Shown piece after piece: positions 3,787-51,329 of a stretch of DNA of 64,000 nt. How positions within the stretch are numbered: position 1 is the stretch's first letter; the number at the start of each line of letters is the position of its first letter. Position numbers and translations under genes: made by a program. Below the pieces are notes generated by a model. That model made no database searches. It worked only from the letters and a program-made list of their open reading frames with translations, and was not told the DNA's origin. Source of the DNA: Alysiella crassa DSM 2578 (lineage in GTDB: Bacteria > Pseudomonadota > Gammaproteobacteria > Burkholderiales > Neisseriaceae); the NCBI RefSeq assembly GCF_000745955.1, contig NZ_JQKH01000007.1, positions 1 to 64,000 on the forward strand, given 5' to 3'.

Positions 3787-4782
3787 ATGTTTCCCAAGAA
3801 AAAAAACATCCCAACTCCTGAACCCCAAGTGCTTGAAGTTACCCCGCCACCGATTTTTGCCAATGCGCGTGGGCATTTGCATACGGTGCGCGATTTCCTG
3901 CGTTTTAGCGTGAGCCGTTTTAATGAAGCGGAACTGTATTTCGGGCACGGCAGCGACAATGCTTATGATGAAGCAGCGTATTTGATTTTGCACACGCTGC
4001 ATTTGCCTTTAGACACGCTGGAGCCGTATTTGGACGCGCATTTATTGCCCGAAGAACAAGACCATTTGCTTGATTTAATTGAACGTCGTGTGGTGGAACG
4101 CATTCCCGTTGCCTATTTAACGCAACACGCGATTCAGGGCGAATTTGAGTTTTATGTTGATGACCGTGTGATTGTGCCACGCTCGTTTATTTACGAATTA
4201 TTGGGTGAGCCGTTGCGCCCTTGGATTGAATATGATGAGCTGATTCACAGCGCGTTGGATTTGTGTACGGGTAGCGGCACATTGGCGATTCAAATGGCGT
4301 ACCATTATCCTGACGCGCAAATTGACGCAGTAGACATCAGTTTAGATGCACTGGAAGTGGCTTCCATCAATATTGATGACTATGATTTGCGTGAACGCAT
4401 TCATTTGGTGCATACGAATTTATTTGAAGGTTTGGAAAATAAATACGATTTGATTGTGTCCAATCCGCCGTATGTGGACGAAGAATCGGTCGCTGCACTG
4501 CCAGATGAGTATTGGCATGAGCCTGAACTCGCGCTCGGTAGCGGCAAAGATGGCTTGGATGCAACCCGCGAAATCATCAAACACGCCGCCGATTATTTGA
4601 ATGATGATGGTGTGTTGCTGGTGGAAATTGGGCATAATCGTGAAGTGCTGGAACGCGCCTACCCTACTTTGGATTTTGTTTGGTTGGAAACGAGCGGCGG
4701 CGATGGTTTTGTGTTCTTGCTGACCAAAGAGCAGTTGGTGGCTGGTTTGCAACAAATGAATGTGCTGGAAACGGAAAGTTAA
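3787..4782 (+). CDS. prmB: 50S ribosomal protein L3 glutamine N5-methyltransferase
   Basis: The protein is an S-adenosylmethionine-dependent methyltransferase with motif I DLCTGSGTLAIQMA (about residue 158 on) and the catalytic motif SNPPYVDEE (NPPY about 226-229) of the PrmA/PrmB/PrmC glutamine methylases. The N-terminal HTVRDFLRFSVSRFNEA and FGHGSDNA segments are specific for PrmB, which methylates a glutamine of ribosomal protein L3. An in-frame ATG at 3757 would give 341 residues, but that codon overlaps a TATAAT -10 box (3753-3758), so I prefer the ATG at 3787 (331 residues). Neither start has a strong ribosome-binding site. It converges with moeA. Confidence 0.9.
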   Translation: MFPKKKNIPTPEPQVLEVTPPPIFANARGHLHTVRDFLRFSVSRFNEAELYFGHGSDNAYDEAAYLILHTLHLPLDTLEPYLDAHLLPEEQDHLLDLIERRVVERIPVAYLTQHAIQGEFEFYVDDRVIVPRSFIYELLGEPLRPWIEYDELIHSALDLCTGSGTLAIQMAYHYPDAQIDAVDISLDALEVASINIDDYDLRERIHLVHTNLFEGLENKYDLIVSNPPYVDEESVAALPDEYWHEPELALGSGKDGLDATREIIKHAADYLNDDGVLLVEIGHNREVLERAYPTLDFVWLETSGGDGFVFLLTKEQLVAGLQQMNVLETES

Positions 4783-4793
4783 AGTGAAAAAGG

Positions 4794-4844
4794 TTTCAGG
4801 CTGCCTATCGTTAAATTTTAATTATAAAAATAGGCAGCCTGAAA
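4794..4844. terminator. Bidirectional DUS-pair terminator between prmB and moeA
   Basis: Two inverted DUS-containing arms, TTTCAGGCTGCCTAT at 4794-4808 and ATAGGCAGCCTGAAA at 4830-4844, can form a 15-bp stem with an AT-rich loop. It lies between two convergent genes. Inverted DUS pairs used as terminators are well known in Neisseriaceae. Confidence 0.8.
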
Positions 4845-4864
4845 AGTTAATTTCATTGATTTAA

Positions 4865-6088
4865 TTACAAAAATGCTTGCTCAAATGGCTGCACTTCCAC
4901 CACATCGCCTACCGCCAAAGAACCACTTTCCAATGGCAACAACATATACGCATTCGCCTGACTAATCCCCAAAATCCGATGGGAATCCTGCGAACCACAC
5001 GGTGCGACAGTCCACGAACCATCGCTTTGGCGCGTGATGGTAGCGCGTTGAATGTCCATGCGCCCCGCCGCTTTTTTCACAGGTGCAGTCAAGGCAGCCT
5101 GAAAACGCAAAGGTTGCGGCAAATCTCGCGCACCACACAATTGCCAAAGTGCTGATTTCACAAACATATCAAATCCCACAAAACCCGAAATCGGATTTCC
5201 TGGTAAACCAAAATACCACGCCAACAACATCCGCCCAAACACGAACGGTTTACCCGGTTTCATCGCCACCTTGTAATGATGAATCGCGCCCAAACGCAAC
5301 ACCGCTTCACGCATATAATCATAATCTCCCACCGACACGCCACCCGATGTAATCACCACATCAGAGGTTTTCGCCGCTTCGTCTAATACGCGCATAACGC
5401 TTTCCAAATCGTCTTCCACTTTTTTCAAATCAATGATTTCAATTGGAAATTCAGACAACCTTGCCATCAACATATGGCGATTGCTGTCATAAATTTGGCT
5501 GCTGCCCGAAAGCGCTTGCGATGGCTCAACCAATTCATCACCTGTGGACAATACCGATACTTTGATTTTTTTATACACACACACATCGCCAAAACCCAAT
5601 GCCGCCAACAATAAACTGTCCGCGTGCCGCAAAATCCGTCCTTGTGGCAAAACATGCGTGCCAATTTTAATTTCTTCGCCTGCATAACGGATATTTTGTG
5701 CGCCGCCCATGTCTTGCGTTAAAACAATGTTGCCATCTCTGTCCACTTGCGTGTTTTCTTGTAACACGACGGTAATGCAATCGGCAGGCACCACCGCGCC
5801 CGTCATAATCCGCACACATTCGCCCTGCCCCACGCTGCCTGAAAAAGCGTGTCCTGCCGCCGATTCGCCAATTAATTGAAACACATCGCCTGCTTTTGCT
5901 TCATGCGGCAAAGCATAACCGTCCATTGCCGACACATTTGCATTGGGCACATTCATGGGCGACACCACATCTTGCGCCAACACGCGCCCAGACACTTGCG
6001 CCACAGGCACGGTTTCCGTTTCAGGCAGCCTGCATTGTGCGGCGATTTGATTAAACATTAATTGTTGTAATTCTTCTACGGTCGTCAT
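4865..6088 (-). CDS. moeA: Molybdopterin molybdenumtransferase
   Basis: The 407-residue protein has the MoeA architecture: an N-terminal region with NVSAMDGYALP, a central MPT-binding domain with ITSGGVSVGDYDYM and KVAMKPGKPFVFG, LPGNPISGFVGFDMFV, and a C-terminal beta-barrel domain. MoeA inserts molybdate into adenylated molybdopterin to make molybdenum cofactor. The length is normal for the family. The ATG at 6088 is preceded by AAGGA at a good distance. No other moa/moe/mob genes are in the window. A DUS is embedded near residues 20-25 (RLPET). Confidence 0.93.
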   Translation of the reverse strand: MTTVEELQQLMFNQIAAQCRLPETETVPVAQVSGRVLAQDVVSPMNVPNANVSAMDGYALPHEAKAGDVFQLIGESAAGHAFSGSVGQGECVRIMTGAVVPADCITVVLQENTQVDRDGNIVLTQDMGGAQNIRYAGEEIKIGTHVLPQGRILRHADSLLLAALGFGDVCVYKKIKVSVLSTGDELVEPSQALSGSSQIYDSNRHMLMARLSEFPIEIIDLKKVEDDLESVMRVLDEAAKTSDVVITSGGVSVGDYDYMREAVLRLGAIHHYKVAMKPGKPFVFGRMLLAWYFGLPGNPISGFVGFDMFVKSALWQLCGARDLPQPLRFQAALTAPVKKAAGRMDIQRATITRQSDGSWTVAPCGSQDSHRILGISQANAYMLLPLESGSLAVGDVVEVQPFEQAFL

Positions 6089-13383: not shown

Positions 13384-15159
13384 TTAATCTCCCAAATAAC
13401 GGTCTACCGTGAGTTTTTGCCACACCGCCACCGCGCCATCATTGTCCACGCCCACCTCCAATTCCACGCCCTGAATCACGCCAAACCACGCGCCATCGGC
13501 TTCGTCAAACCGCCAAATATCGCCGATTTTCGCACGCTCAATCGCGTATTTTTCGGACGGTGGCGCAAGCGTGATTTGTGCTTGCAAATGCGTTCCGCTT
13601 TCGCTTAACACTTTGATTCCTAAAGAACGACACACATTGTCCGCCGTGTACAGGCTGCCTGAAAGACTGGGCGCGGCTGGCATTTTATCCGTGCCATCGC
13701 GGTAAACGTGCGCCATGTTGGATAATGTGTGGGTCGGCGCAATCAACACGCTGTTATATTGCGTATTGACTTGTTTTTGCTCATCAATTTTCACAATCAC
13801 ATTCGGCGGACACACCACGTCCGCGCCATCGTCCAACAACCAAGCCGCTCGTTTCCAACGCGGTTTCACATTTAAAATCAACTCATTGGGGTGCGATTCA
13901 ATAAATGCGCCTGCGGTTTGTGCCAATTCCTGCATCATCGCAATCGGCGTTTTATCCGTTAAAACAAAGAGATGGGCTGGAATCCGCCAATTCGCCGCCG
14001 TCCAATCCTGCAATTTAAAATCGGTGTAACGCAATTGCGCGTCCACAATTTGCCGCGCCATCAAATCTTGATTAACCGTACCTGTTTGATTTTTCGCGTA
14101 ATCTTTGCCTAATTTCGCGGTCAAGCTACGACCCGACACGGTAAACGATTTGCGCCCAAATTCGCGGCTGGCTGAAATATTTTCCCCCATAAAAACAAAG
14201 GTTTCGCCATTGATTTTCAGCGTAATCGGCAAATCAGTTTGTCGGGTAAAATCAAATTTTTCAAAGTCTTGCGGTGGCATTTGCACCGAGCCTTGCCAAC
14301 AATAACTGTCCATGTCGGTTTTGATGCTCGCGCCGAATAATTCAAGCGGTTCGCCATTCACGCTGGCGGAAATGTCGTTTACAATCATATAAGTATCCAA
14401 TAAAGGAATCTGCGCCACCGCCCGACACGCAAACGGCAAGGGAATTTGTGTGCCATCGGTTTCGGTCTGATACACCTCAAATGTGAGCGGCAATTCGTCT
14501 GACGGCGGATTTTTGCCGCAGGGCGATTTGATTTCAGGATTTTTATTTGGTAAAACAATATCATACCAATGGCACGGCGGCTGCATACTGTCGCCTATTT
14601 GGGTTTTCAGGCAGCCTGAAACGTCCGCGCCCACAAATTGACCCGAAATCAGATTTGCTAAAAATTCGCCTGCAAATTCAGAGGATTGGCAGGATTTGCG
14701 AAATGCGCCCACCCAATTCGCCACGCCGTGATTTTTGTGTAACACACTGTCGCCAAAAGGATTATTTTGACAATGCTGTAAATTTTGGGTTTCGCTGATT
14801 TGCGCGGTGTGGCAGTTTTGCAGTAATGCGCTGTCATCATATTGATGTGTTTGACAAATTTGCACATCTGCCATGTCCAGCGTGCTGATTTCTAAACAAT
14901 TTTGCACATTCAGGCTGCCTGAAACATCCGCATCATGATTTTGCGCCAAATTTGCACCAACTGATTGATGAGATTGACATAAATCGGTTTTCAGGCTGCC
15001 TGAATAGTGGGCGCGAAAGTCAAACACCAATGGGCTGCGGCGCGGCGGCTTCGGTGGCGAAATCGGCGCAATATTGCCCACATCATCGCCAAACGCAATC
15101 GGCAAATCGTCATCAAAATCAGGTTGTAATTCGCTGAATTGAATGAGTAAATCGTCCAT
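13384..15159 (-). CDS. Large phage tail protein, possible tail-tip/hub-like component
   Basis: The 591-residue protein has two parts. Residues from about 225 on look like a tail hub: DTYMIVNDISASVNGEPLEL, FTVSGRSLTAKLGKDYA, then a helical MMQELAQTAGAFIESHPNEL region reminiscent of gpD/gp27-type proteins. The first 200 residues are unusual: Cys-, His-, Asn- and Gln-rich with irregular repeats such as VQICQTHQ, ALLQNCHTAQ and NLQHCQNN, interrupted by DUS-encoded SGSLK/SGCLK. Hub function is inferred from position after the tape measure and other tail genes. Confidence 0.6.
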   Translation of the reverse strand: MDDLLIQFSELQPDFDDDLPIAFGDDVGNIAPISPPKPPRRSPLVFDFRAHYSGSLKTDLCQSHQSVGANLAQNHDADVSGSLNVQNCLEISTLDMADVQICQTHQYDDSALLQNCHTAQISETQNLQHCQNNPFGDSVLHKNHGVANWVGAFRKSCQSSEFAGEFLANLISGQFVGADVSGCLKTQIGDSMQPPCHWYDIVLPNKNPEIKSPCGKNPPSDELPLTFEVYQTETDGTQIPLPFACRAVAQIPLLDTYMIVNDISASVNGEPLELFGASIKTDMDSYCWQGSVQMPPQDFEKFDFTRQTDLPITLKINGETFVFMGENISASREFGRKSFTVSGRSLTAKLGKDYAKNQTGTVNQDLMARQIVDAQLRYTDFKLQDWTAANWRIPAHLFVLTDKTPIAMMQELAQTAGAFIESHPNELILNVKPRWKRAAWLLDDGADVVCPPNVIVKIDEQKQVNTQYNSVLIAPTHTLSNMAHVYRDGTDKMPAAPSLSGSLYTADNVCRSLGIKVLSESGTHLQAQITLAPPSEKYAIERAKIGDIWRFDEADGAWFGVIQGVELEVGVDNDGAVAVWQKLTVDRYLGD

Positions 15160-29026: not shown

Positions 29027-29404
29027 TTAAAATTTGTTTTGTGTGGCTTGGGCGCGTTCACGAGCCAAATCCGCAAGGCTGCCTGAAAGTTTTACTTCAC
29101 TTACTGGCGACGGTGTGTCGCCAGTCAATGCGGCAGGCAATGGCGGTTTGGTTTGTGTCTGCCCTGATAATTTCATTGCGCCAATCATCGCGTCCGCTTG
29201 TGCGTCATCAAGCGACAACAACACAGCATAAACCTGCTCGCTGACTTGATTTGCACCCGTCAAACCTGCATCGGACAATTTTTTATCCACTTTAGTTTTC
29301 TTTTCGGCATCGGCTTGGGCTTTTTCCAACTGGGCTTTTTCGGCTTCCAGTTCAGCAACTTTGGCTTTGAGTGCATCCAATTCGGCTTGTTCTTCTTGGG
29401 TCAT
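29027..29404 (-). CDS. Internal in-frame start: scaffold protein alone
   Basis: Within the protease gene, AAGGA followed by AACCACC and an ATG at 29404 would start a 125-residue protein MTQEEQAELDALKAKVAELE. It contains only the coiled coil and C-terminal part. Phage Mu makes its scaffold Z from the end of gene I in this way. Confidence 0.6.
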   Translation of the reverse strand: MTQEEQAELDALKAKVAELEAEKAQLEKAQADAEKKTKVDKKLSDAGLTGANQVSEQVYAVLLSLDDAQADAMIGAMKLSGQTQTKPPLPAALTGDTPSPVSEVKLSGSLADLARERAQATQNKF

Positions 29405-29962
29405 GGTGGTTTCCTTATGATTTTCATTAGACAGAGAGAAATCGGGTTTAAAGTCCGTCCCATCGGACAACACAACTGCATTTGTGTGCGCGTCTGCGCC
29501 CACCGCAACAAAGCTCACTTCACGCACAGCACAATCACGCAAAATCACAATCGGTGCGGCAACGGTTACGCCATTGACCACCATTTCGCCCTCACGCAGT
29601 TGCTCTTGTCGGGCGGACTGAATGTAGGCAGACAACTCCCACGGATAGCCTTCGTCCGCAGTCGCTGCAACGTGCTTGCCCTGTTCTGTGGACAGCAAAG
29701 TGCCGTCAATTTGCAAACCCTGCGGCGACACGCTCAACGCGCCCACGCCTACTTTTTGATTGGGGTCGTGTTCCAGCAAAACGCCTGTTTTGGCGCGATA
29801 TTGGATATTGGACAAATCCACAATGTAGCGGTCGCCCCACTTTGTGAACACCTGACCCGAATGGGCAATGCCCGTGAATTGGCGGACAAAGCCGTTATCA
29901 GACGCTTGGTCGCCAAATTTCAAGCCAGCATCTTGGGCAAGTTTGATGTGCAATACAGTCAT
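29027..29962 (-). CDS. Phage capsid maturation protease/scaffold (Mu I-like)
   Basis: The 311-residue protein has an N-terminal protease domain (about 1-180) with LLEHDPNQKVGVGALS, GYPWELSAYIQSA and a likely catalytic Ser in REVSFVAVG, as in Mu gpI-type proteases. A coiled-coil scaffold follows (about 188-230, ELDALKAKVAELEAEKAQLE). It is the first gene after a late-promoter-like motif. An internal start at 29404 can make the scaffold alone. A DUS encodes KLSGSLAD near the C-terminus. Confidence 0.85.
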   Translation of the reverse strand: MTVLHIKLAQDAGLKFGDQASDNGFVRQFTGIAHSGQVFTKWGDRYIVDLSNIQYRAKTGVLLEHDPNQKVGVGALSVSPQGLQIDGTLLSTEQGKHVAATADEGYPWELSAYIQSARQEQLREGEMVVNGVTVAAPIVILRDCAVREVSFVAVGADAHTNAVVLSDGTDFKPDFSLSNENHKETTMTQEEQAELDALKAKVAELEAEKAQLEKAQADAEKKTKVDKKLSDAGLTGANQVSEQVYAVLLSLDDAQADAMIGAMKLSGQTQTKPPLPAALTGDTPSPVSEVKLSGSLADLARERAQATQNKF

Positions 29963-29989
29963 GTTTAAAAAACAGTTTTGGGAAAAAGA

Positions 29990-30040
29990 TAGCGCATTGT
30001 TTCATACGAAAAACCCATTAACTAACTGATACATTTCAAC
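29990..30040 (-). promoter_or_regulatory. Late-promoter-like motif, copy 1 (capsid/tail operon)
   Basis: On the minus strand, GTTGAAATGTATCAG (30040-30026) is followed by a GTTA-TG block and, about 25 bases on, ACAAT. The same arrangement occurs at 40237-40189 upstream of the endolysin gene. I infer an activator (Mor)-dependent late promoter. No strong -35 box is present, as expected for an activated promoter. Confidence 0.55.
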
Positions 30041-30061
30041 AAATTGAAATTTTACAAATAG

Positions 30062-30097
30062 AAAAACCATTTTGTTGTCATCAACAAAATGGTTTTT
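30062..30097. terminator. Bidirectional hairpin upstream of the plus-strand cassette
   Basis: AAAAACCATTTTGTTG pairs perfectly with CAACAAAATGGTTTTT around a 4-base loop, with A and T runs on either side. It insulates the plus-strand cassette from the minus-strand capsid operon. The remaining bases to 30210 hold no gene. Confidence 0.8.
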
Positions 30098-30210
30098 AGG
30101 CGTAATTGAATTGCAGTTTGTCCACAAAATTTAATGGCATTGGTATGTATTACACAACATATTGATGAAATAAGGGATTTAATTTATTAAAATAATTCCT
30201 TGCTTTATGA

Positions 30211-30238
30211 TTGTATATTATTTAATATACGATAAAAT
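30211..30238 (+). promoter_or_regulatory. Promoter/operator O1 of the plus-strand cassette
   Basis: GTATATTA-TT-TAATATAC at 30213-30230 is an 18-bp dyad. It overlaps a possible -35 (TTGTAT, 30211-30216) and precedes TAAAAT at 30233-30238 with 16-bp spacing. An identical-arm copy lies at 30728-30745. A GGGAG ribosome-binding site follows before the ATG at 30262. Confidence 0.65.
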
Positions 30239-30261
30239 CAACTCATTTTTCGGGAGATTTT

Positions 30262-30504
30262 ATGTATCGGGTTTATGTTTTAAAGCAACGAAAAGGCGGT
30301 AGTGAAGTGCTTGCCGAAACCAAAACGCAGACCAATAGCTTCGCCACCGCGTCTGCTGCGTTTTGGGAATTACACCAGCAAGACTTTGACGCTAAACATT
30401 TGCTTTTGATGAGTAAAGACAATAAACAAATTAACGCTTACCGCTATCAAAGCAAAGCTGGCGAGCGTGATTTTTTAGAATTGGGGGCAAATTTAAATGA
30501 CTGA
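30262..30504 (+). CDS. Accessory protein A of the plus-strand cassette (80 aa), unknown
   Basis: The protein starts MYRVYVLKQRKGGSEVLAET and continues with NSFATASAAFWELHQQDFD and LLLMSKDNKQINAYRYQ. It looks like a small alpha/beta domain. A strong GGGAG ribosome-binding site precedes it. It overlaps gene B by 8 bp. I do not recognise a characterised family. Its location, between the protease and MuF-side head genes, is where Pseudomonas Mu-like phages carry anti-CRISPR genes, so an anti-defence or host-modifying role is a hypothesis. Confidence 0.7.
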   Translation: MYRVYVLKQRKGGSEVLAETKTQTNSFATASAAFWELHQQDFDAKHLLLMSKDNKQINAYRYQSKAGERDFLELGANLND

Positions 30505-30718
30505 ATACAATAAATTATCAGATAAACGAAAACAAGCTATTGCGAAAAATTCGCAAGACTGGTTGAAAAAGAATCGGGTGGGCTTGGTGTCCAACGTCAA
30601 ACCCGAAACACGGGCTTTGTTTGATTCTATTCACGAGAAATTATTGAGTGAAAACAAGGTTTCTAGCAGAGAAGATACGGTCAATTATTTGTGCAATTTT
30701 TTTCTGCAAAATACTTGA
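30497..30718 (+). CDS. Accessory protein B (73 aa), candidate ribbon-helix-helix autoregulator
   Basis: The protein is basic at the N-terminus (MTEYNKLSDKRKQAIAKNSQ). It then has a strand-helix-helix pattern: VGLVSNVKPETRALFDSIHE, then SREDTVNYLCNFFLQ. This is compatible with a ribbon-helix-helix fold but is not diagnostic. It is coupled to gene A by overlap and its stop abuts the second palindromic operator. By analogy with Aca proteins in anti-CRISPR operons it could bind the two palindromes. Confidence 0.6.
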   Translation: MTEYNKLSDKRKQAIAKNSQDWLKKNRVGLVSNVKPETRALFDSIHEKLLSENKVSSREDTVNYLCNFFLQNT

Positions 30719-30745
30719 CAAGGTCAAGTATATTATATAATATAC
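30715..30745 (+). promoter_or_regulatory. Second promoter/operator O2 of the cassette
   Basis: TTGACA (30715-30720) and TATAAT (30736-30741) form a strong sigma70-type promoter with 15-bp spacing. The perfect palindrome GTATATTATATAATATAC (30728-30745) covers the -10 box. CTTGAC-AAG-GTCAAG over the -35 is a second dyad. The -35 overlaps the stop codon of gene B. It would drive genes C and D. Confidence 0.72.
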
Positions 30746-30809
30746 ACACATCAACAAAAGTTGATAACCGACCAAGCGGGTTCTTGGATTTTCTGAACAA
30801 GGAAAAAAT

Positions 30810-31049
30810 ATGGATACAAAAGAAAGCCTTGAAATTCAAAAGGCAAAACAGGAAAATGCGATGGCGTGGGAAAAGCATCGTTTAGAAATGAAAATTTCTT
30901 ATGACAATCATCAAGTTGATTTGGAAAAGAAAAAAATCGCAAACGATGTCGCAAGGTCAAAAGCAAAATGGGTGTTTTGGTTTGCGCTACTCACATTTCT
31001 GAATGCAGGTTTTGCAATTTTCAACTTAATCAGCAACATCTTTAAATAA
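30810..31049 (+). CDS. Accessory protein C: coiled coil with C-terminal membrane anchor (79 aa)
   Basis: Residues 1-50 are a highly charged helix (MDTKESLEIQKAKQENAMAW) and residues about 54-77 form one membrane span (VFWFALLTFLNAGFAIFNLI). This is a tail-anchored topology with the coiled coil in the cytoplasm. AAGGA lies upstream. It is transcribed from O2. Function unknown; small anchored proteins in prophage cassettes can act in exclusion. Confidence 0.65.
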   Translation: MDTKESLEIQKAKQENAMAWEKHRLEMKISYDNHQVDLEKKKIANDVARSKAKWVFWFALLTFLNAGFAIFNLISNIFK

Positions 31050-31097
31050 ACCAACCGCCCAACTGCTTATTAAGCGGTTGGGCATAAAGGAAAAATG

Positions 31098-31199
31098 ATG
31101 AATACAGAAAAATTTTATCTGATGGGCGCAAAGATTTTGACTGCATTGTCAATTATTGCATTTATTGTTTGCGCTTACCTTGTTTTTAAACTCTTGTAA
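31098..31199 (+). CDS. Accessory protein D: single-span micropeptide (33 aa)
   Basis: MNTEKFYLMGAKILTALSII followed by AFIVCAYLVFKLL is a single membrane helix. AAGGA stands 6 bases before the ATG at 31098 (an alternative ATG is at 31095). A GCCCAAC/GTTGGGC hairpin precedes it at about 31063-31085 and a strong terminator follows at 31214. Too small to assign. Confidence 0.55.
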   Translation: MNTEKFYLMGAKILTALSIIAFIVCAYLVFKLL

Positions 31200-31213
31200 A
31201 CCAGCCAAATCAG

Positions 31214-31256
31214 AAAACCGCCAAATTTGCGTTTTTAGCGCATTTGGCGGTTTTTT
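31214..31256 (+). terminator. Rho-independent terminator of the plus-strand cassette
   Basis: AAACCGCCAAAT pairs with ATTTGGCGGTTT, with an inner TGCG/CGCA stem, followed by a T run on the plus strand. It lies 15 bp after gene D. Confidence 0.85.
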
Positions 31257-31350
31257 GATTTCGGGTATGGAAAATAATTTTGTCGCAATCCTAGCCCCTT
31301 TAACACCCCTTTAAAATTGATTTAAAAATGGCTAGGACAAATGCAGAAAC

Positions 31351-31388
31351 AAAAATCCCACCCGATAACAAAATTGGGTGGGATTTTT
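31351..31388. terminator. Bidirectional terminator ending the upstream head operon
   Basis: AAAAATCCCACCC (31351-31363) pairs with GGGTGGGATTTTT (31376-31388). On the minus strand it ends the lysis/terminase/portal operon just after 31412. Between 31257 and 31350 there is only a CCTAGCC...GGCTAGG inverted repeat and no gene. Confidence 0.85.
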
Positions 31389-31411
31389 CGGGTTTTCAGG
31401 CTGCCTGAAAT

Positions 31412-31765
31412 TTAGTAACACACACCAGCCACACCATGAGCCGAGCCAGTCATGCGTTGGATAATGTCATCAAATTCAGGTGGCACATCAAAACCTGCAT
31501 AATCAAACACCGACACCATTTCACTATCGTACACCAAAGGGGCTTCAATCGGATTGCCACCAGCAGGCTGCGGCGAAACATCAACAATTTGCGCGGACAC
31601 AGCTTGGTCTATTGCACTTTGCAAGGTGTGAACCGCCACATCATCGCCACTTAATCTGCCTGACACAGGCAAATCAAAGCCACGTTTATGAACGGTTTCG
31701 CGCTCCCAAGTGATTTGACCGATGTCTTTACCCTGTTTACGCAACATAAATTGAATAGAAATCAT
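31412..31765 (-). CDS. Phage head-operon protein, unknown (117 aa)
   Basis: The protein begins MISIQFMLRKQGKDIGQITW (an alternative start is at MLRKQ) and ends in MTGSAHGVAGVCY. It starts inside the end of the MuF-like gene (4-bp overlap). No motif recognised. It is the last gene of the first late operon. Confidence 0.65.
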   Translation of the reverse strand: MISIQFMLRKQGKDIGQITWERETVHKRGFDLPVSGRLSGDDVAVHTLQSAIDQAVSAQIVDVSPQPAGGNPIEAPLVYDSEMVSVFDYAGFDVPPEFDDIIQRMTGSAHGVAGVCY

Positions 31766-33480
31766 GGTTGATACCTTACCAGCAAAGCCAGTCCAAAATA
31801 CAAAAAATCAGGTTTTCTTGCCAATTCCTGATAACGCTTGATGTCGCCACCCAATAAAGCTTCAAAAATCATGGTCATCATTTCCAAAGGCAAAGGGTCG
31901 TCTTCATCGCCATACATTTTACCATAATAGGGATTGGGGAAGTCATCGCGTTTACCGATTTCATTGGCACGATAGCGTTGATTACCCGTCATTTTTCTTA
32001 ATGTTTGAACTTTATCGTTGGCGGTTTTTTCGTGCCACAAGCGCACAAAATAATCGTTTAGTTCAGGCAGTACCTTTTGTAAACGGTGGGTAAATTCGTG
32101 GATTTGCGTTGAAATCATGCGAGTGGCATTGTGATTTAAATTGTTCAACATCATGCTATCGCCTTGTTGAAACGCCATTTTACGCCCCATAAATGCCCAT
32201 TGAAAGGCTTCTGCACCATTGGCAAAATCTTGTGGCTTATTTTTCATCATGTTAATGAAACGCTTATTGGATAAATCAGGAAAATAATGCCACGCTCGCC
32301 CCATTGAATCTGCAACCAAAACCCGACCCATTTCGTTGGATTTTTGCAACCATACTGTTGGAAAAACTTGCAAATTATCTGTTAATTCTTGCGCGGCTTC
32401 GGCATTACTGCTGTATGTGTACACTTCGCCTCCCAGCTCAATACCTTCTCGCCGCATGATTTCCATAATGCCTTCATGTGGTTTGCCTTGTTTAATGGCT
32501 TCATTCATCACAGTAATATGGGTTTCGTAAAGCAATCTGCCCTCGTTAATCAAATTGGCACTACTGGCAAATACGCCACCTTCTGTTAATTCAAGGTGCT
32601 GTTTTTTCTTTTTTAAATAAGCCATTAAATTATCCGCCAATTCACGAATAAAACCCTTGCCATGTCGCTGCTCTGCGAGCATTTGCACATCAACCAAACG
32701 CGCTGCGTGATTGTGTGCAAAAGTCGGCATCACATCAAAGGGAATTTTCACGGTCTGCCCAGTACGCGGATTGGTAAAATCCACCCATTGAATGTCATTC
32801 GTGCCATCATCAATAATGCCTTTGGCGTGATTGGCTTTTTGCCGCTCGGTAAATTTTTCAGGCTGCCTGTCTATGTCTTCGCCACGCTCGCGCAGGGCTT
32901 GTTTTTCGTTCAACTGGCGCACGGTGCATTGGCAACCGTAGCCGTTGGGCGGAAAAATGCTCTGCCAAATTGGGTCGTCCACGCGCCAAATTTTGCCGTA
33001 GTAAGTCATGTGCGATTGGCGTTTCTGCTCGGCGGTGCTGGCGATGTATTTCAAATACGGAAAATCTGCCTTGTCTTCTTGCACACGCGCCCATTGCCCT
33101 GCGGCGTAGGCGGTTGCAAGATTGGTTTGAAAAATCACGCGCAAACGGCGTGTTGAGCCAAGTTGCACGGTTTTTGCCACGCCATCAATGGGGTCGGTCA
33201 TCACGCTTTCGCCCCACCAGCCCTGCGCCATGAGATACGGTTTCAGCTTTTTGACGAATTTGTCGTAGCTTTCGCCACTTTGCATGGCGTGTTCAAGGGC
33301 TGATTTAGTGGTTTGCAACAAATCCGCATTCATCATTTTTGCGACTGTAAAGCCAACCGCGTGTTCGTACAGCCAAACATCATAGTGGGAAAATGACGGC
33401 AATACGGTTTTGGATTTCAAATGTTCCAGCGCAGCGCGGTCAAGCAAACTGGAAAAATGGATAACAGGTTCGCGTGTCAT
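31762..33480 (-). CDS. Mu F-like head morphogenesis protein fused to a zincin-like domain
   Basis: The first 260 residues form a MuF/minor-head domain: RRLRVIFQTNLATAYAAGQW (111-130) and FPPNGYGCQCTVRQL (176-190). The C-terminal half (about 290-572) has HEFTH at 461-465, an HExxH zinc-protease motif, in ISTQIHEFTHRLQKVLPELN. It is followed by FPNPYYGKMYGDE and EMMTMIFEALL, which may supply a third ligand. MuF proteins carry variable C-terminal toxin or enzyme domains. I chose the ATG at 33480 because it overlaps the portal stop in ATGA. Confidence 0.82.
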   Translation of the reverse strand: MTREPVIHFSSLLDRAALEHLKSKTVLPSFSHYDVWLYEHAVGFTVAKMMNADLLQTTKSALEHAMQSGESYDKFVKKLKPYLMAQGWWGESVMTDPIDGVAKTVQLGSTRRLRVIFQTNLATAYAAGQWARVQEDKADFPYLKYIASTAEQKRQSHMTYYGKIWRVDDPIWQSIFPPNGYGCQCTVRQLNEKQALRERGEDIDRQPEKFTERQKANHAKGIIDDGTNDIQWVDFTNPRTGQTVKIPFDVMPTFAHNHAARLVDVQMLAEQRHGKGFIRELADNLMAYLKKKKQHLELTEGGVFASSANLINEGRLLYETHITVMNEAIKQGKPHEGIMEIMRREGIELGGEVYTYSSNAEAAQELTDNLQVFPTVWLQKSNEMGRVLVADSMGRAWHYFPDLSNKRFINMMKNKPQDFANGAEAFQWAFMGRKMAFQQGDSMMLNNLNHNATRMISTQIHEFTHRLQKVLPELNDYFVRLWHEKTANDKVQTLRKMTGNQRYRANEIGKRDDFPNPYYGKMYGDEDDPLPLEMMTMIFEALLGGDIKRYQELARKPDFLYFGLALLVRYQP

Positions 33481-34910
33481 TTTGTTGCACCCTTGACCCA
33501 TTCTTGTGAATTTTGCCAGACCAGTTTATCAATCAAAACTTGGTCGCCCTCGCTCAAATCCAAATCATTCAACAAGTTATTAAACTCTTCATGGCTGTCC
33601 ACGCTGGCAGCCGCGCTTAAAATCGCGTGAATTTTTGATTGCAAAATCTGTTGGTCGGCTTTTAACTGGCTTTCAGGCTGCCTGAAAGTCGTTTTTTCAT
33701 CATCAGATAATTTCAACGACAAACTTGTATCAGCTTTTGCACTCTCTTGATTTTGCTTGATTTTAAAATGCTCGGGTTCAAAGCCTAAAACATCTGTAAA
33801 GTATTGTTCCGTCAGTTCAATTTGACCTGCTGACAAATATTTGGCATCACGCTCGGCGCGGTTGGTATCGGGCTTGATTTCGGTTTCGTATTCAAACCAA
33901 ATCATGCCTTTCACTTTGATTTCTTGATGAAAATGGCGGTTTAAATCCAACAAAGCCGTCAAAATGTGATTGACTGCTTCCGCCAACAACAGCAAATACG
34001 CGCCAATGCGGTTTTTCTCGCTTTCTGATTCAACTTGTTGCGCGGAACGGCTGCCATTCATCAATTCGCTGGTTTTCACACGCCCCAAAATGGATTTCTG
34101 AATACGCGCATTCGCCATCTGCTCCAATTGACGGAAAAACGCACCGTCTGCCGTGTTTTGCAGCAATTTAATGTCTTCTTCCAACCCCACAGCCGCCGCG
34201 CCACCCCGTTTGACGGCATGGGCTTTTTGCGCGGCTTCGGCTTTGTCGCTGTCGGTTTTGGCTACCAAAAGCGGTTGGGCGTAGCGTTGCGCGAATTGGT
34301 AAGCGTAACGCCAACCTTCTTTACGCAACATCACGGCTGGATAAATCCGCACAATCGCCATTTCGCCAGCAGGGTTTTTGCTGGTCGCTTTGTTACTTAA
34401 AAACAAATGCGTGTAGGTCGTGTCGGTTTCTTCTTCGCCATTTTGACCGTTGTAAATCAGTTTGCCGAATTTGGGGGTGTATTTGTCCAATTCGTCATGA
34501 CGGCTAATCACTTGTTTTAGCGAAACAAAACCGTCTTCATCTTGCGAATAAATCAAACGCGCCACCGCATAACCGCACAATTTTGCCACCACCACCTGCT
34601 CGGCAATGGAGGGCAAATTGCGCCGCACGGATTGATAGAGTTTGTCCATTTGCGTGTCATCGGTTTGGTCGCCAAATAACCGCCAGTTGCTTGAAAGCAA
34701 AGCGGAAACAATGTCTTCACGGCAAGAATCCACCTCATCGTCTGACATCACGGCTGAATACACTTGCTGACGGCTCAATCCCAGTAAATTCAATAATTCA
34801 TCCGTACCTCCGCTTGAAAACGCATTGAGCGCGTAGGCTGTGTCTTGCACAAGCTGTTCTATGGGCGAAACGGCTGGGGCGGATTTGATTTTTTTGTCTT
34901 TTTTAGCCAT
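33477..34910 (-). CDS. Phage portal protein (DUF935, Mu gp29-like)
   Basis: The 477-residue protein shows the DUF935 portal pattern: SAVMSDDEVDSCREDIVSAL, an acidic wing and LGRVKTSELMNGSRSAQQVE, then EAVNHILTALLDLN. It lies between the large terminase and the MuF-like gene. The portal forms the DNA gate of the capsid. A DUS encodes FRQPESQ near the C-terminus. Confidence 0.88.
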   Translation of the reverse strand: MAKKDKKIKSAPAVSPIEQLVQDTAYALNAFSSGGTDELLNLLGLSRQQVYSAVMSDDEVDSCREDIVSALLSSNWRLFGDQTDDTQMDKLYQSVRRNLPSIAEQVVVAKLCGYAVARLIYSQDEDGFVSLKQVISRHDELDKYTPKFGKLIYNGQNGEEETDTTYTHLFLSNKATSKNPAGEMAIVRIYPAVMLRKEGWRYAYQFAQRYAQPLLVAKTDSDKAEAAQKAHAVKRGGAAAVGLEEDIKLLQNTADGAFFRQLEQMANARIQKSILGRVKTSELMNGSRSAQQVESESEKNRIGAYLLLLAEAVNHILTALLDLNRHFHQEIKVKGMIWFEYETEIKPDTNRAERDAKYLSAGQIELTEQYFTDVLGFEPEHFKIKQNQESAKADTSLSLKLSDDEKTTFRQPESQLKADQQILQSKIHAILSAAASVDSHEEFNNLLNDLDLSEGDQVLIDKLVWQNSQEWVKGATK

Positions 34911-47956: not shown

Positions 47957-50077
47957 TTAAAAGCGATACTTATTGATTCGTGGGGTAGCTTCCAGCACTT
48001 CCACGTCCAGCACTTCCACAGTTTGCGGAATCGTCAGCTCATTGGCGGCAACCATTGGCGCGGATAATTTTTCAAAATCAGGCGTGTTTTCAATGAGATT
48101 GCCGCCCTTAATGTCCATTTCAATGCGCTTGATTTGGTTTTGTTTGAGCTTAATTTGTTTTTCAGCACGTTTGCGGCGTTGCGTTTCCGCTTTGCTTTCC
48201 ACATCAGGGAATGCGTCTCGCGTATTGCCGTTCAGCTTCGCCATGCACACAAAACGCCCATCTTTCAAATACACGCCCACGTCTTGCGGTCTATCCCAAT
48301 CGTAAGCAATTAACACTTTTTCGCCGTTGTATGGGGCAAGCTCGGTACTGAAATAGGCTTTATTATCAAAGCGCAACCAACCACGTGATACTGTCCGCTC
48401 TTCCATGCTGCGCTCCAACAATTGCAGCTCGTCTTCGCTTAAGATTTCGGGGCGTTTTTCAGGCTCTATCTGCGCCATGCGAAATGCCCAGTATTCCATC
48501 GGGCTGTAATGCTTGCCCGTGTCGGGATTTTTGGGGTGTTCGCTGTGTGGGGTGCGGTTGTATTCATCAATCATTGCCGTAAAATCAGCCATAAATTCAT
48601 GAAAAGTTGGCATTTTTTCTTTGTAACGTTTCTGCTCGTCAGTCAAAGTTTTGCCGTCTTGTTCCGCTTTCGCCCAACTGTTTGTTTTGCGATACATCAA
48701 ATTACCCACCGATTTATCCATATCACTACCATGATAAGTAGCGTATTCTTTGGCAAGTTTGATGGTGGTAACGTCCCACAAGCCTTCAATTAAACCACGC
48801 CCTTGCGGTCGCCCTCCCATGCCCGTGTGGTGTTCAATATCCAAACGTGGACAAATCCCCGTCAATTCGCCTGTAATATCGCGCCCCGTCTCGCCCTTGC
48901 CATTATCCGAATAAATCAACACAGGCAAACCCACCAAGCGCAATGCCATCCGAATCGCGTCCGCCACCGCTTTACAGCTTTCCGACACCGTGATACTGAA
49001 ACCTACAATCCGCCGCGTACAACCATCTACAATCATCGTGATTTCAGGCACATACGGCTGACCATGTTCAAAATGCCGAATCCGCGCTTTCAAACTATGC
49101 CCGTCAATAATCCAAACTTGATTCGGTTCAAGAACGTGCCAATTTCGCTTCACATAAGGCAGCAGCGATAAATATTGTTGCCCCACGCGCCGACCCTTTT
49201 CACGCACCATCTGTGGCATTTTGCCCCACACGCGCCGCACCACATGAATGCTGGGCAACTCATTTTCAGGCAGCCCATCGCTGTGCCATTGCCGTGCAAA
49301 TTTTTCATAACTGTGTTTCAGTTTCGGTTTGGCAGGGATTTGGTGGATTTTCAGAAAACGTGGCAACCATGTTTCATCTAAAAACGACCGCCCCAAATTA
49401 GTGGTTTTCGGAGCAAGTGCCAGCAATCGTGCATTTACGTTACTGTCAGCAGCTTTAAAAGCTGCCAGCCAATTCAAAATAGTTCGTGCCGAAACATCGC
49501 GTTTACCATTTATTCGTGCATTGGCGATGGGGACAAGCTGGCTAATTCGTTCAGGCAGCACCCCCATGCGCATCTGCTCTAAAAAATAGGCAACCGATTG
49601 TTTTTTAGAATACTTTAGCGTTTCGCCAATGCTCAACACATCTAAAACAATCGCCAATCGCGCATCAGCGCATTGCCTGTCTTTCAGTGTCAGCCGTTTT
49701 ACTGCTTCATTCGGATTATCCAAATCCAAAGCAAGCTGATTGTCTTCAGCGCGGTGGACAGTTGGCAAACCTTTGGGGTTGGCACGGGATTTACGCGTGG
49801 TTTTTGGGGTTTCGCTGATTTGCAGGCTGCCTGAAAGCTCAAATTCGGCAATTTCTTCGGTTTGGTTAGCTAATTTCTGTTGAACTAATTTGCTGTAAAC
49901 CGCTTCCCGAATGGGAACTGGCAAGGCAGAAATCAAATATTCCACACCACCACCGCGACCTTTTCGTGGGCGAGATTGCCAGTTTTCGCGTTCTGCTTTT
50001 TTCTTTAAACCACGAACCGTTTTTGGCAAATCTTGAATATTCAGTTTTACAAGCTCATTCATATTAATGAATTGCAT
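47957..50077 (-). CDS. MuA-like DDE transposase
   Basis: The 706-residue protein has N-terminal DNA-binding domains, including the Mu-type winged helix (VRGLKKKAERENWQSRPRKG, about 22-41), and an RNase H-fold core with Asp325 (VWIIDGHS), Asp391 (IYSDNGKG) and Glu431 (RGLIEGLWD). A beta-barrel domain and a basic C-terminal region for MuB contact follow. It integrates and replicates the phage by transposition. The ATG at 50077 or one five codons later may be used. All catalytic residues appear present. Confidence 0.93.
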   Translation of the reverse strand: MQFINMNELVKLNIQDLPKTVRGLKKKAERENWQSRPRKGRGGGVEYLISALPVPIREAVYSKLVQQKLANQTEEIAEFELSGSLQISETPKTTRKSRANPKGLPTVHRAEDNQLALDLDNPNEAVKRLTLKDRQCADARLAIVLDVLSIGETLKYSKKQSVAYFLEQMRMGVLPERISQLVPIANARINGKRDVSARTILNWLAAFKAADSNVNARLLALAPKTTNLGRSFLDETWLPRFLKIHQIPAKPKLKHSYEKFARQWHSDGLPENELPSIHVVRRVWGKMPQMVREKGRRVGQQYLSLLPYVKRNWHVLEPNQVWIIDGHSLKARIRHFEHGQPYVPEITMIVDGCTRRIVGFSITVSESCKAVADAIRMALRLVGLPVLIYSDNGKGETGRDITGELTGICPRLDIEHHTGMGGRPQGRGLIEGLWDVTTIKLAKEYATYHGSDMDKSVGNLMYRKTNSWAKAEQDGKTLTDEQKRYKEKMPTFHEFMADFTAMIDEYNRTPHSEHPKNPDTGKHYSPMEYWAFRMAQIEPEKRPEILSEDELQLLERSMEERTVSRGWLRFDNKAYFSTELAPYNGEKVLIAYDWDRPQDVGVYLKDGRFVCMAKLNGNTRDAFPDVESKAETQRRKRAEKQIKLKQNQIKRIEMDIKGGNLIENTPDFEKLSAPMVAANELTIPQTVEVLDVEVLEATPRINKYRF

Positions 50078-50471: not shown

Positions 50472-51329
50472 ATGCAACTAATTGATATAGCGCATAATTT
50501 AATTGATGAACGTGAGCGTTTAGGATACAGTCGTAAGAATTTTGCAGCCCAAGTTAATAAAACAGACGAAAGTTTGCGTTTATATGAAACAGGTAAAGCA
50601 AATATGTCGGCTGAATTTTTGGCTGCTGCTGCTCAATTGGGAGTAGATGTTCAATTTGTTTTAACGGGAGTGAAATCTGAAAATTTACACATGGTGGCGC
50701 AAAAATTTGAAAATGAACTTAATCAAGTATTGAATGAAAATCATGGTGGCGTTCAATTTAATGCCGAAGTTTCAGGCAGTCCGATTGTTGGCAATCACAA
50801 TACAGTCAATCAAGTAACAGGTACACAAAATAACATTACGACCCAAAAACATATTACAAAAACCGTTGTTGAGATTTCTCCTGACGACAATCGTATTGAT
50901 GAGGAAGAAAAAGCCATTTTACTGGATTTAGTTAATAAAATTGTAGCTAAAGAACAGGAAGTTAAAAGAAAACCCAAAACACATCGTGCAGTTTGGTCAA
51001 GTCTAAATGCACATTGTCAAGTTTCAACATACAAACTTATTGCCAAAGATGATTTTGAAAAAGCAAAAATGTTTTTGAGAAAATGGCTGGGCAATTTAAA
51101 TAATACAGCAACATCAAAACGCAATAATCCGACTGCTTATCGTAATAATCAATATTCTACAATCCATGTAAAAATCAAAGAGCTTGGGTTGGAAGAATGG
51201 TATCGTGATACATTAAAAAGCAAATTTGGTGTTGATAGTTCAACTGAACTTGATGAAGTGGAAATGAAAAAACTCGTAACAATGGTTAATGGAAAATACA
51301 GCAGAGAAAAGAAAAAGTTGAGTGAATAA
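50472..51329 (+). CDS. Phage repressor-like regulator (XRE HTH plus ORF6C-like domain)
   Basis: The 285-residue protein has an N-terminal XRE-type HTH (RLGYSRKNFAAQVNKTDESL), an Asn/Thr-rich linker with SPIVGNHNTVNQVTGTQNN (about 103-121) and a C-terminal domain with HRAVWSSLNAHCQVSTYKLI resembling ORF6C. It is the only plus-strand gene at the regulatory end, so it is the best candidate for the lysogeny repressor. GGAG precedes the ATG. It lacks a LexA-type self-cleavage domain. Confidence 0.8.
   Translation: MQLIDIAHNLIDERERLGYSRKNFAAQVNKTDESLRLYETGKANMSAEFLAAAAQLGVDVQFVLTGVKSENLHMVAQKFENELNQVLNENHGGVQFNAEVSGSPIVGNHNTVNQVTGTQNNITTQKHITKTVVEISPDDNRIDEEEKAILLDLVNKIVAKEQEVKRKPKTHRAVWSSLNAHCQVSTYKLIAKDDFEKAKMFLRKWLGNLNNTATSKRNNPTAYRNNQYSTIHVKIKELGLEEWYRDTLKSKFGVDSSTELDEVEMKKLVTMVNGKYSREKKKLSE

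Follow-up and report, generated by a model that had tools for sequence, protein, structure and literature searches.

Phages of the JBD30 type use the site between the protease and the MuF side of the head gene cluster for acr-aca operons. A block of four small genes at this very place in a Mu-type prophage therefore raises the question of whether it too serves against host defences, and of how its expression is controlled. In the window (the whole 64-kb stretch of DNA analysed) the block consists of gene A (30262-30504, 80 aa), gene B (30497-30718, 73 aa; the two overlap by 8 bases in the list of open reading frames), gene C (30810-31049, 79 aa) and ORF D (31095-31199, 34 aa), all on the plus strand. 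The original prediction had described four tiny genes of 80, 73, 79 and 33 residues; the positions and the sizes of A to C agree with this, and D has 34 residues, not 33. Minus-strand genes occupy both flanks, so that A to D run opposite to the head genes of the prophage, as had been claimed for the surrounding late operons. On one side lies a member of a head maturation protease family (29027-29962, minus strand; phrog_3244 in PHROGs, 4e-24), and on the other a gene for a 117-aa protein, then the MuF gene (31762-33501, minus strand; Phage_Mu_F in Pfam, 5e-18) and the Mu portal gene (33477-34910, minus strand), which places the cassette between the protease and the MuF-side head genes as predicted. 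The same phage has a Mu transposase gene (47957-50077) with an AAA ATPase gene adjoining it. Separately, a plus-strand gene at 50472-51329 carries an ORF6C domain (PF10552), which we take to be an antirepressor-type domain.

Relatives of the protease were found in 8 of the 83 genomes of the family, the window's own genome counted. In one prophage (G004, L165) the protease, the 117-aa protein, MuF and the portal are 88%, 97%, 94% and 93% identical to those of the window, and the cassette is missing, the gap between the 117-aa gene and the protease gene being about 380 bases versus about 1450 in the window. In G020 (L170), a further prophage of the family, the same protease/MuF site is occupied by an antirepressor-like gene, of AntA type by eye (4460-5065), and the Psychrobacter phage Y8A has two small ORFs at the corresponding site. 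The site thus takes accessory genes, and the expectation that its content would vary among related Neisseriaceae prophages was borne out by G004 and G020, and beyond them by Y8A. Absence of the block from the closest relative of the prophage, together with homologues of A at 55-67% identity, indicates that the cassette is more than a chance set of reading frames.

We were able to find a repeated palindrome in the cassette. One copy of the predicted operator, GTATATTATTTAATATAC (30213-30230, plus strand), lies upstream of A, and a second, the perfect palindrome GTATATTATATAATATAC (30728-30745, plus strand), overlaps the promoter of C; within three mismatches, the 18-bp GTATATTATATAATATAC has 2 sites in the 64 kb, versus 0.00 expected from 100 shuffles. 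A promoter-like site, TTGACA-17-TAATAT, was placed before C (30715-30743, plus strand) by the promoter scan, which gave none just before A; the claim that A and B have a promoter of their own is thereby reduced to the operator copy at 30213-30230. A different palindrome stands at both leader-bearing promoters of another locus, L010 (by eye), which fits a regulator that differs between phages. Terminator-like inverted repeats flank the cassette upstream of A (30062-30097) and behind D (31219-31240), with a third in the gap between C and D (31051-31081), and the interval 29960-31450 holds 6 terminator-like sites versus 1.4 in shuffles, one of them a hairpin of the leader (HP2, below) on the plus strand. 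The terminators that had been said to close off the cassette are therefore represented by terminator-like repeats at its two ends, although the scan lists both on the minus strand, as it does the one between C and D.

C is preceded by a predicted two-hairpin RNA leader (30748-30812, plus strand), in which HP1 (30750-30765, plus strand; stem ATCAAC/GTTGAT) and HP2 (30772-30787, plus strand; stem CCAAG/CTTGG, loop CGGGTT) are followed by a ribosome site and the start codon of C. HP2 also scores as terminator-like. We define the leader by an HP2 of at least 5 pairs around an invariant CGGGT(T) loop with a start codon close downstream, all of which the window shows. Among the window, both L010 copies and the locus L057, the HP2 stems (5-6 pairs) vary in sequence around a constant loop; shuffled flanks yield an HP2-like stem in 0.8-1.7% of trials. 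A sequence-only model built from these four leaders found that of L012/L014 (3.6e-4 in 251 kb), after which the leader of L004 was spotted by eye. We then derived a stricter pattern from L004 and L012 that did not constrain one of the stem pairs; it matched 45 sites in 43 stretches. At 44 of the 45 sites this unconstrained pair is Watson-Crick, as it is at 37 of the 38 that remain after removal of near-copies (16 CG, 15 GC, 3 AT, 3 TA and 1 GG), a covariation for which the binomial p is about 1e-18 at 0.30, an optimistic value since related phages are still among the 38 sites. HP1 of at least 5 pairs adjoins HP2 in 22 of 37 cases versus 6.8 expected, and an ATG-initiated ORF of at least 40 codons begins 10-35 bases behind the leader in 36 of 38 cases versus 56 of 284 control places.

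Other measures of the leader were less telling. Its folding energy was not better than that of shuffles at a convincing level (z of -1.46 in the window, -1.51 for L010 gene 2, whose stretch ended short of the start codon, -0.62 for L010 gene 1 and 0.10 for L057). No family of Rfam 15 covers the leader in window positions 29900-31500, in L010 or in 7 further loci (E up to 1-2), only a tRNA is found at the gathering cut-off in the whole window, and the leader DNA gave chance-level rows in the phage collection. In three plasmid loci (L231-L233) no leader of this kind was seen over 5 kb; L233 does contain a CGGGTT stem, but no ACCG precedes it. Several candidates were rejected: the L138 type, which is one unrelated locus in 7 stretches; L141; positions 7060-7130 of L145, a 231-kb viral contig where CGGGTT stands before a small ORF in a leader-like sequence that folds otherwise; and L234, the sole match of the leader pattern in 369 class genomes, apparently due to chance, with no A found and then an ssb-like gene (by eye). 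Neither the leader nor the A family is described in the portions of the literature looked at, those of PMC11065993 and PMC13131331 included, which is no proof that they are unpublished.

As the original prediction had noted, A, B and C match no family that can be named: nothing stood above the curated cut-offs in Pfam or NCBIfam, where A had no match, and PHROGs gave only weak rows (a single one for A, at 0.008). A protein-guided scan of the viral collection recovered A as a separate gene on 6 viral contigs, the window's own included (L008, the window contig; L043, which is the L010 contig; L214, L229, L228 and L209). These amount to about four lineages, since leader, integrase and A do not differ between L012 and L013. 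We left out L005 and L011, on one contig, which match only through a GIY-YIG-like start, and L016, at an E value of 0.035. In the 83 genomes of the family the search returned only the window's own A, and in 369 class genomes 3 rows, two of them weak; contig scans of the genomes with A gave no confirmed relative, and no low-E match in the phage collection came up when A or its fusions were used as tblastn queries. The weak tblastn matches of A and B to phages were put down to chance, judged on Enterococcus phage EF1, the only one inspected. As far as sequence comparison goes, A is a domain conserved across Mu-type phages, P2-type phages and plasmids.

The nature of this domain is best illustrated by its fusions. 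L057, fetched by the leader DNA pattern and not through A, encodes a 124-aa protein whose first half is A-like and whose second half resembles a ribbon-helix-helix (RHH) domain by eye. In a search of the 26,997 ORFs of the fetched loci, an HMM made only from separate A proteins (A3, with six rows of which two are identical) detects this fusion at 1.2e-5, and an HMM of five fusion heads finds the window's A at 3.2e-7. Further fusions, their build judged by eye, occur in L199, in L221 and in plasmid proteins of Cupriavidus and Salmonella, and a third plasmid ORF with A, from E. coli, stops early. L199 and L221 themselves contributed to the head HMM, but the A6 profile, which includes neither, also detects them, at 7e-18 and 3.5e-8. 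The fusions have a GGARPGAGRP-like linker and an RHH look (both by eye) and no RHH match in Pfam. Being fused to RHH-like tails elsewhere, A is likelier to be part of a regulator than an inhibitor. For gene B we were not able to gain anything useful from family, fold or tail comparison: it has no HTH or RHH family match (a UGSC row at 0.001 was below threshold), hhalign could not align it to the tails of the fusions (probability 0.1%), and the model predicted from its sequence alone consists of helices only and gave no RHH match. With no Pfam RHH in the fusions and no alignment of B to their tails, it is from gene order that we infer B to be the split-off tail, and hence a putative RHH-type DNA-binding partner of A.

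Leader and A were found together well beyond the window. The leader is present on 6 of 6 viral contigs with a separate A. Conversely, 10 of the 43 stretches fetched by the leader pattern hold A at E<1e-3 with the head HMM (L190, L193, L199, L207, L214, L218, L220, L221, L228 and L229). Setting aside the known A contigs L214, L228 and L229, and L209 (also known, its stretch too short for A), the leader alone led to new A loci in 7 of 39 stretches, which represent about five lineages, L193 and L218 being copies. A looser and mostly chance pattern returned A in 2 of 120 stretches, one being L057 and the other the window's own sequence, and L043 narrowly missed the cut-off in that set (0.0017). 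In the loci fetched through the leader, A lies on the leader's strand and starts 64-1228 bases behind it, except in L220, where one long open frame spans the leader. The other 33 of the 43 leader stretches have no detected A domain, which is no proof of its absence because the stretches are partial. Many leader-bearing small genes were seen in the stretches without a detected A among L188-L230, some gene families recurring behind the leader, and L198 and L206 have two leaders each. As A is constant beside the leader and the neighbouring gene of DNA-binding type and the palindrome vary, we propose that A may be the part that meets the RNA.

The candidate payload genes offer little of their own by way of similarity. 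C has a charged N-terminal part and a hydrophobic C-terminal stretch, and D a hydrophobic stretch (all by eye). The sole matches of C are to its own genome among the 83 family genomes and to the same contig in the viral collection; for D we found no homologues and no independent support, and no meaningful match in Pfam or PHROGs. A link to counter-defence comes from L057, where the order is leader, gene X, the A-RHH-like fusion and a relative of the anti-CRISPR protein AcrVA2. The contig ends within the latter, leaving a fragment of 178 residues (4e-8 to PDB 7ci1); 18 records of the phage collection contain proteins related to it, one of them annotated as AcrVA2, and gene X resembles the first gene of L199 (by eye). 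The earlier claim of an anti-CRISPR locus thus gains from the A family adjoining an AcrVA2 relative, although L057 is the only A locus with a recognised Acr relative. Elsewhere, in Pasteurella phage CFP3 (L152, 2124-3735), an AcrVA2 relative stands near an integrase behind a gene of HTH type (by eye) and a small gene, and Moraxella and Shewanella phages encode 64-66 aa proteins directly behind AcrVA2 relatives (L153, 977-1177; L154, 3752-3952; L156, 3879-4073), which are possibly DNA-binding partners.

The host genome has a type I-F CRISPR-Cas system, with Csy2, Csy3, Csy4 and Cas3f above their cut-offs, Csy1 at 9e-43 yet below its cut-off, Cas1f, and one CRISPR array of nine repeats that has the look of type I-F. 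Of the types that had been named as possible targets in the host (II-C, I-C and I-F), I-F is thus present, and Cas9 gave no match in the genome. None of the 8 host spacers matches the window, the best agreement being 13 bases. At the end of contig G000:C15 (L175, about 13541-14364) the I-F Cas1 lies in two pieces in different frames, one with an internal stop; this may reflect a disrupted cas1 gene in the host or an assembly error at the contig end. C and D need not act on CRISPR.

Taken together, we read the block as an accessory, most likely anti-defence cassette in which A and B control the leader-bearing C-D unit, a reading that we consider about evenly balanced between right and wrong. 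A and B would be a split version of a regulator of mobile elements made of an A domain and an RHH-like domain. B, or A and B together, would bind the 18-bp palindrome before A and before C, whereby A-B would repress both itself and the payload promoter; the leader before C, perhaps for D too, might add a second control or protection at the RNA level, perhaps through A. A bolder form of this model takes A as a hairpin-binding translational regulator and B as its DNA-binding partner, so that a dual DNA and RNA control like that exerted by the single protein Aca2 would be split between two proteins or domains, the CGGGT(T) leader would tag counter-defence genes across phage groups, and C and D would represent new families of counter-defence proteins acting at the membrane; we think this bolder form unlikely as a whole. 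Several observations run against the model in either form: B has no RHH family and no alignment to the tails, a single A locus is linked to an Acr, most leaders stand without a detected A, HP2 is terminator-like, a terminator-like repeat separates C from D, the plasmid loci lack the leader, an integrase precedes A in several loci, the folding energy is weak, no spacer matches, and homologues of C and D were not found.

The confident fold model of A (pLDDT 91.8; three strands, a helix, two strands) invites a different assignment of roles, in which A itself would be the inhibitor and act against type I-F CRISPR with an AcrIF9-like fold, B would be an Aca-type repressor and C-D a separate pair. 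Five AcrIF9 entries are among the best structural neighbours of the model (Z 4.8, 4.7, 4.4, 4.2 and 4.1 over 57-62 residues, rmsd 3.1-4.2; the top one 58 residues, rmsd 3.1), the host has a type I-F system, and the A-B arrangement is acr-aca-like. However, unrelated chains score equally (1tlj at Z 4.7, Dmd at 4.4, IL-17RC at 4.1), and a Z below 8 may reflect only a common arrangement. With Foldseek nothing matched at E<=0.001, and AcrIF9 was absent from the best 50 matches listed; hhalign of the A profile against one AcrIF9 sequence gave a probability of 0.4%, and searching PDB sequences with the A4 profile yielded two rows, at 0.047 and 0.85, neither of them AcrIF9 or any other Acr. The profile comparison thus speaks against the AcrIF9 kinship hinted at by the fold neighbours, which we rejected, and the conservation of A in Mu-type and P2-type phages and plasmids, fused to RHH-like tails, makes the inhibitor role unlikely to us. 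Two small overlapping genes with a palindromic operator would also suit an autoregulated toxin-antitoxin pair, A the toxin and B the antitoxin, and a distant relative of A (L015) does lie beside HTH genes, an mqsRA-type pair by eye; yet A matches no toxin family in Pfam or NCBIfam, and is fused in frame to DNA-binding-like tails, and C is preceded by the same operator; we consider this pair improbable. Least probable of all is a role of A as accessory factor of site-specific recombination travelling with tyrosine integrases. It draws on the integrase gene found directly before A in L004, L010, L012-L014 and L193 (in L004 by PHROGs, in the rest by eye), whereas the phage of the window encodes a Mu transposase and no integrase adjoins its A gene, nor is one among the listed neighbours of the fusions in L057, L199, L221 and the plasmid loci.

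The leader, too, can be read otherwise, as an element that serves translation or mRNA stability in small phage genes generally and shares accessory regions with A by location only. That it precedes numerous unrelated small genes, with two copies each in L198 and L206, and that many leader stretches have no detected A, is what such an element would give. Against it stand its presence on every one of the six A contigs, the fixed strand and limited distance of A behind it, L220 apart, and the constant loop on a changing stem, which suggests recognition; on balance we judge a general-purpose leader unlikely.

If the proposed regulation is correct, the CGGGT(T) leader would provide a search handle for new counter-defence genes. 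A covarying leader tied to one domain, and once to an Acr relative, would allow such genes to be found without protein similarity, and it turns the question of whether RNA-level control of counter-defence genes is common among phages into a testable one.

As regards known systems, the solved folds closest to the A model include AcrIF9 (Z 4.8) and T4 Dmd (Z 4.4); both resemblances are too weak for kinship, and that to AcrIF9 has no sequence support. A relative of AcrVA2 follows the A-RHH-like fusion and the leader-bearing gene in L057, and none is recognised in the window cassette. The A-RHH-like fusions of plasmids and phages have the A domain in common with the window, where the putative second half, B, forms a gene of its own whose sequence shows no relationship to their tails. 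The acr-aca operons of Aca1 and Aca2 type differ from the cassette in that the latter gave no meaningful match to known Acr or Aca proteins in PHROGs, Pfam or NCBIfam, its putative regulator is split over two genes, and its hairpin motif has no match in Rfam 15. They are alike in their small genes at a variable phage site, in a regulator-like gene and in an inverted repeat at the promoters. Aca2 controls both its promoter and mRNA hairpins, and the window cassette too has hairpins before its candidate payload gene.
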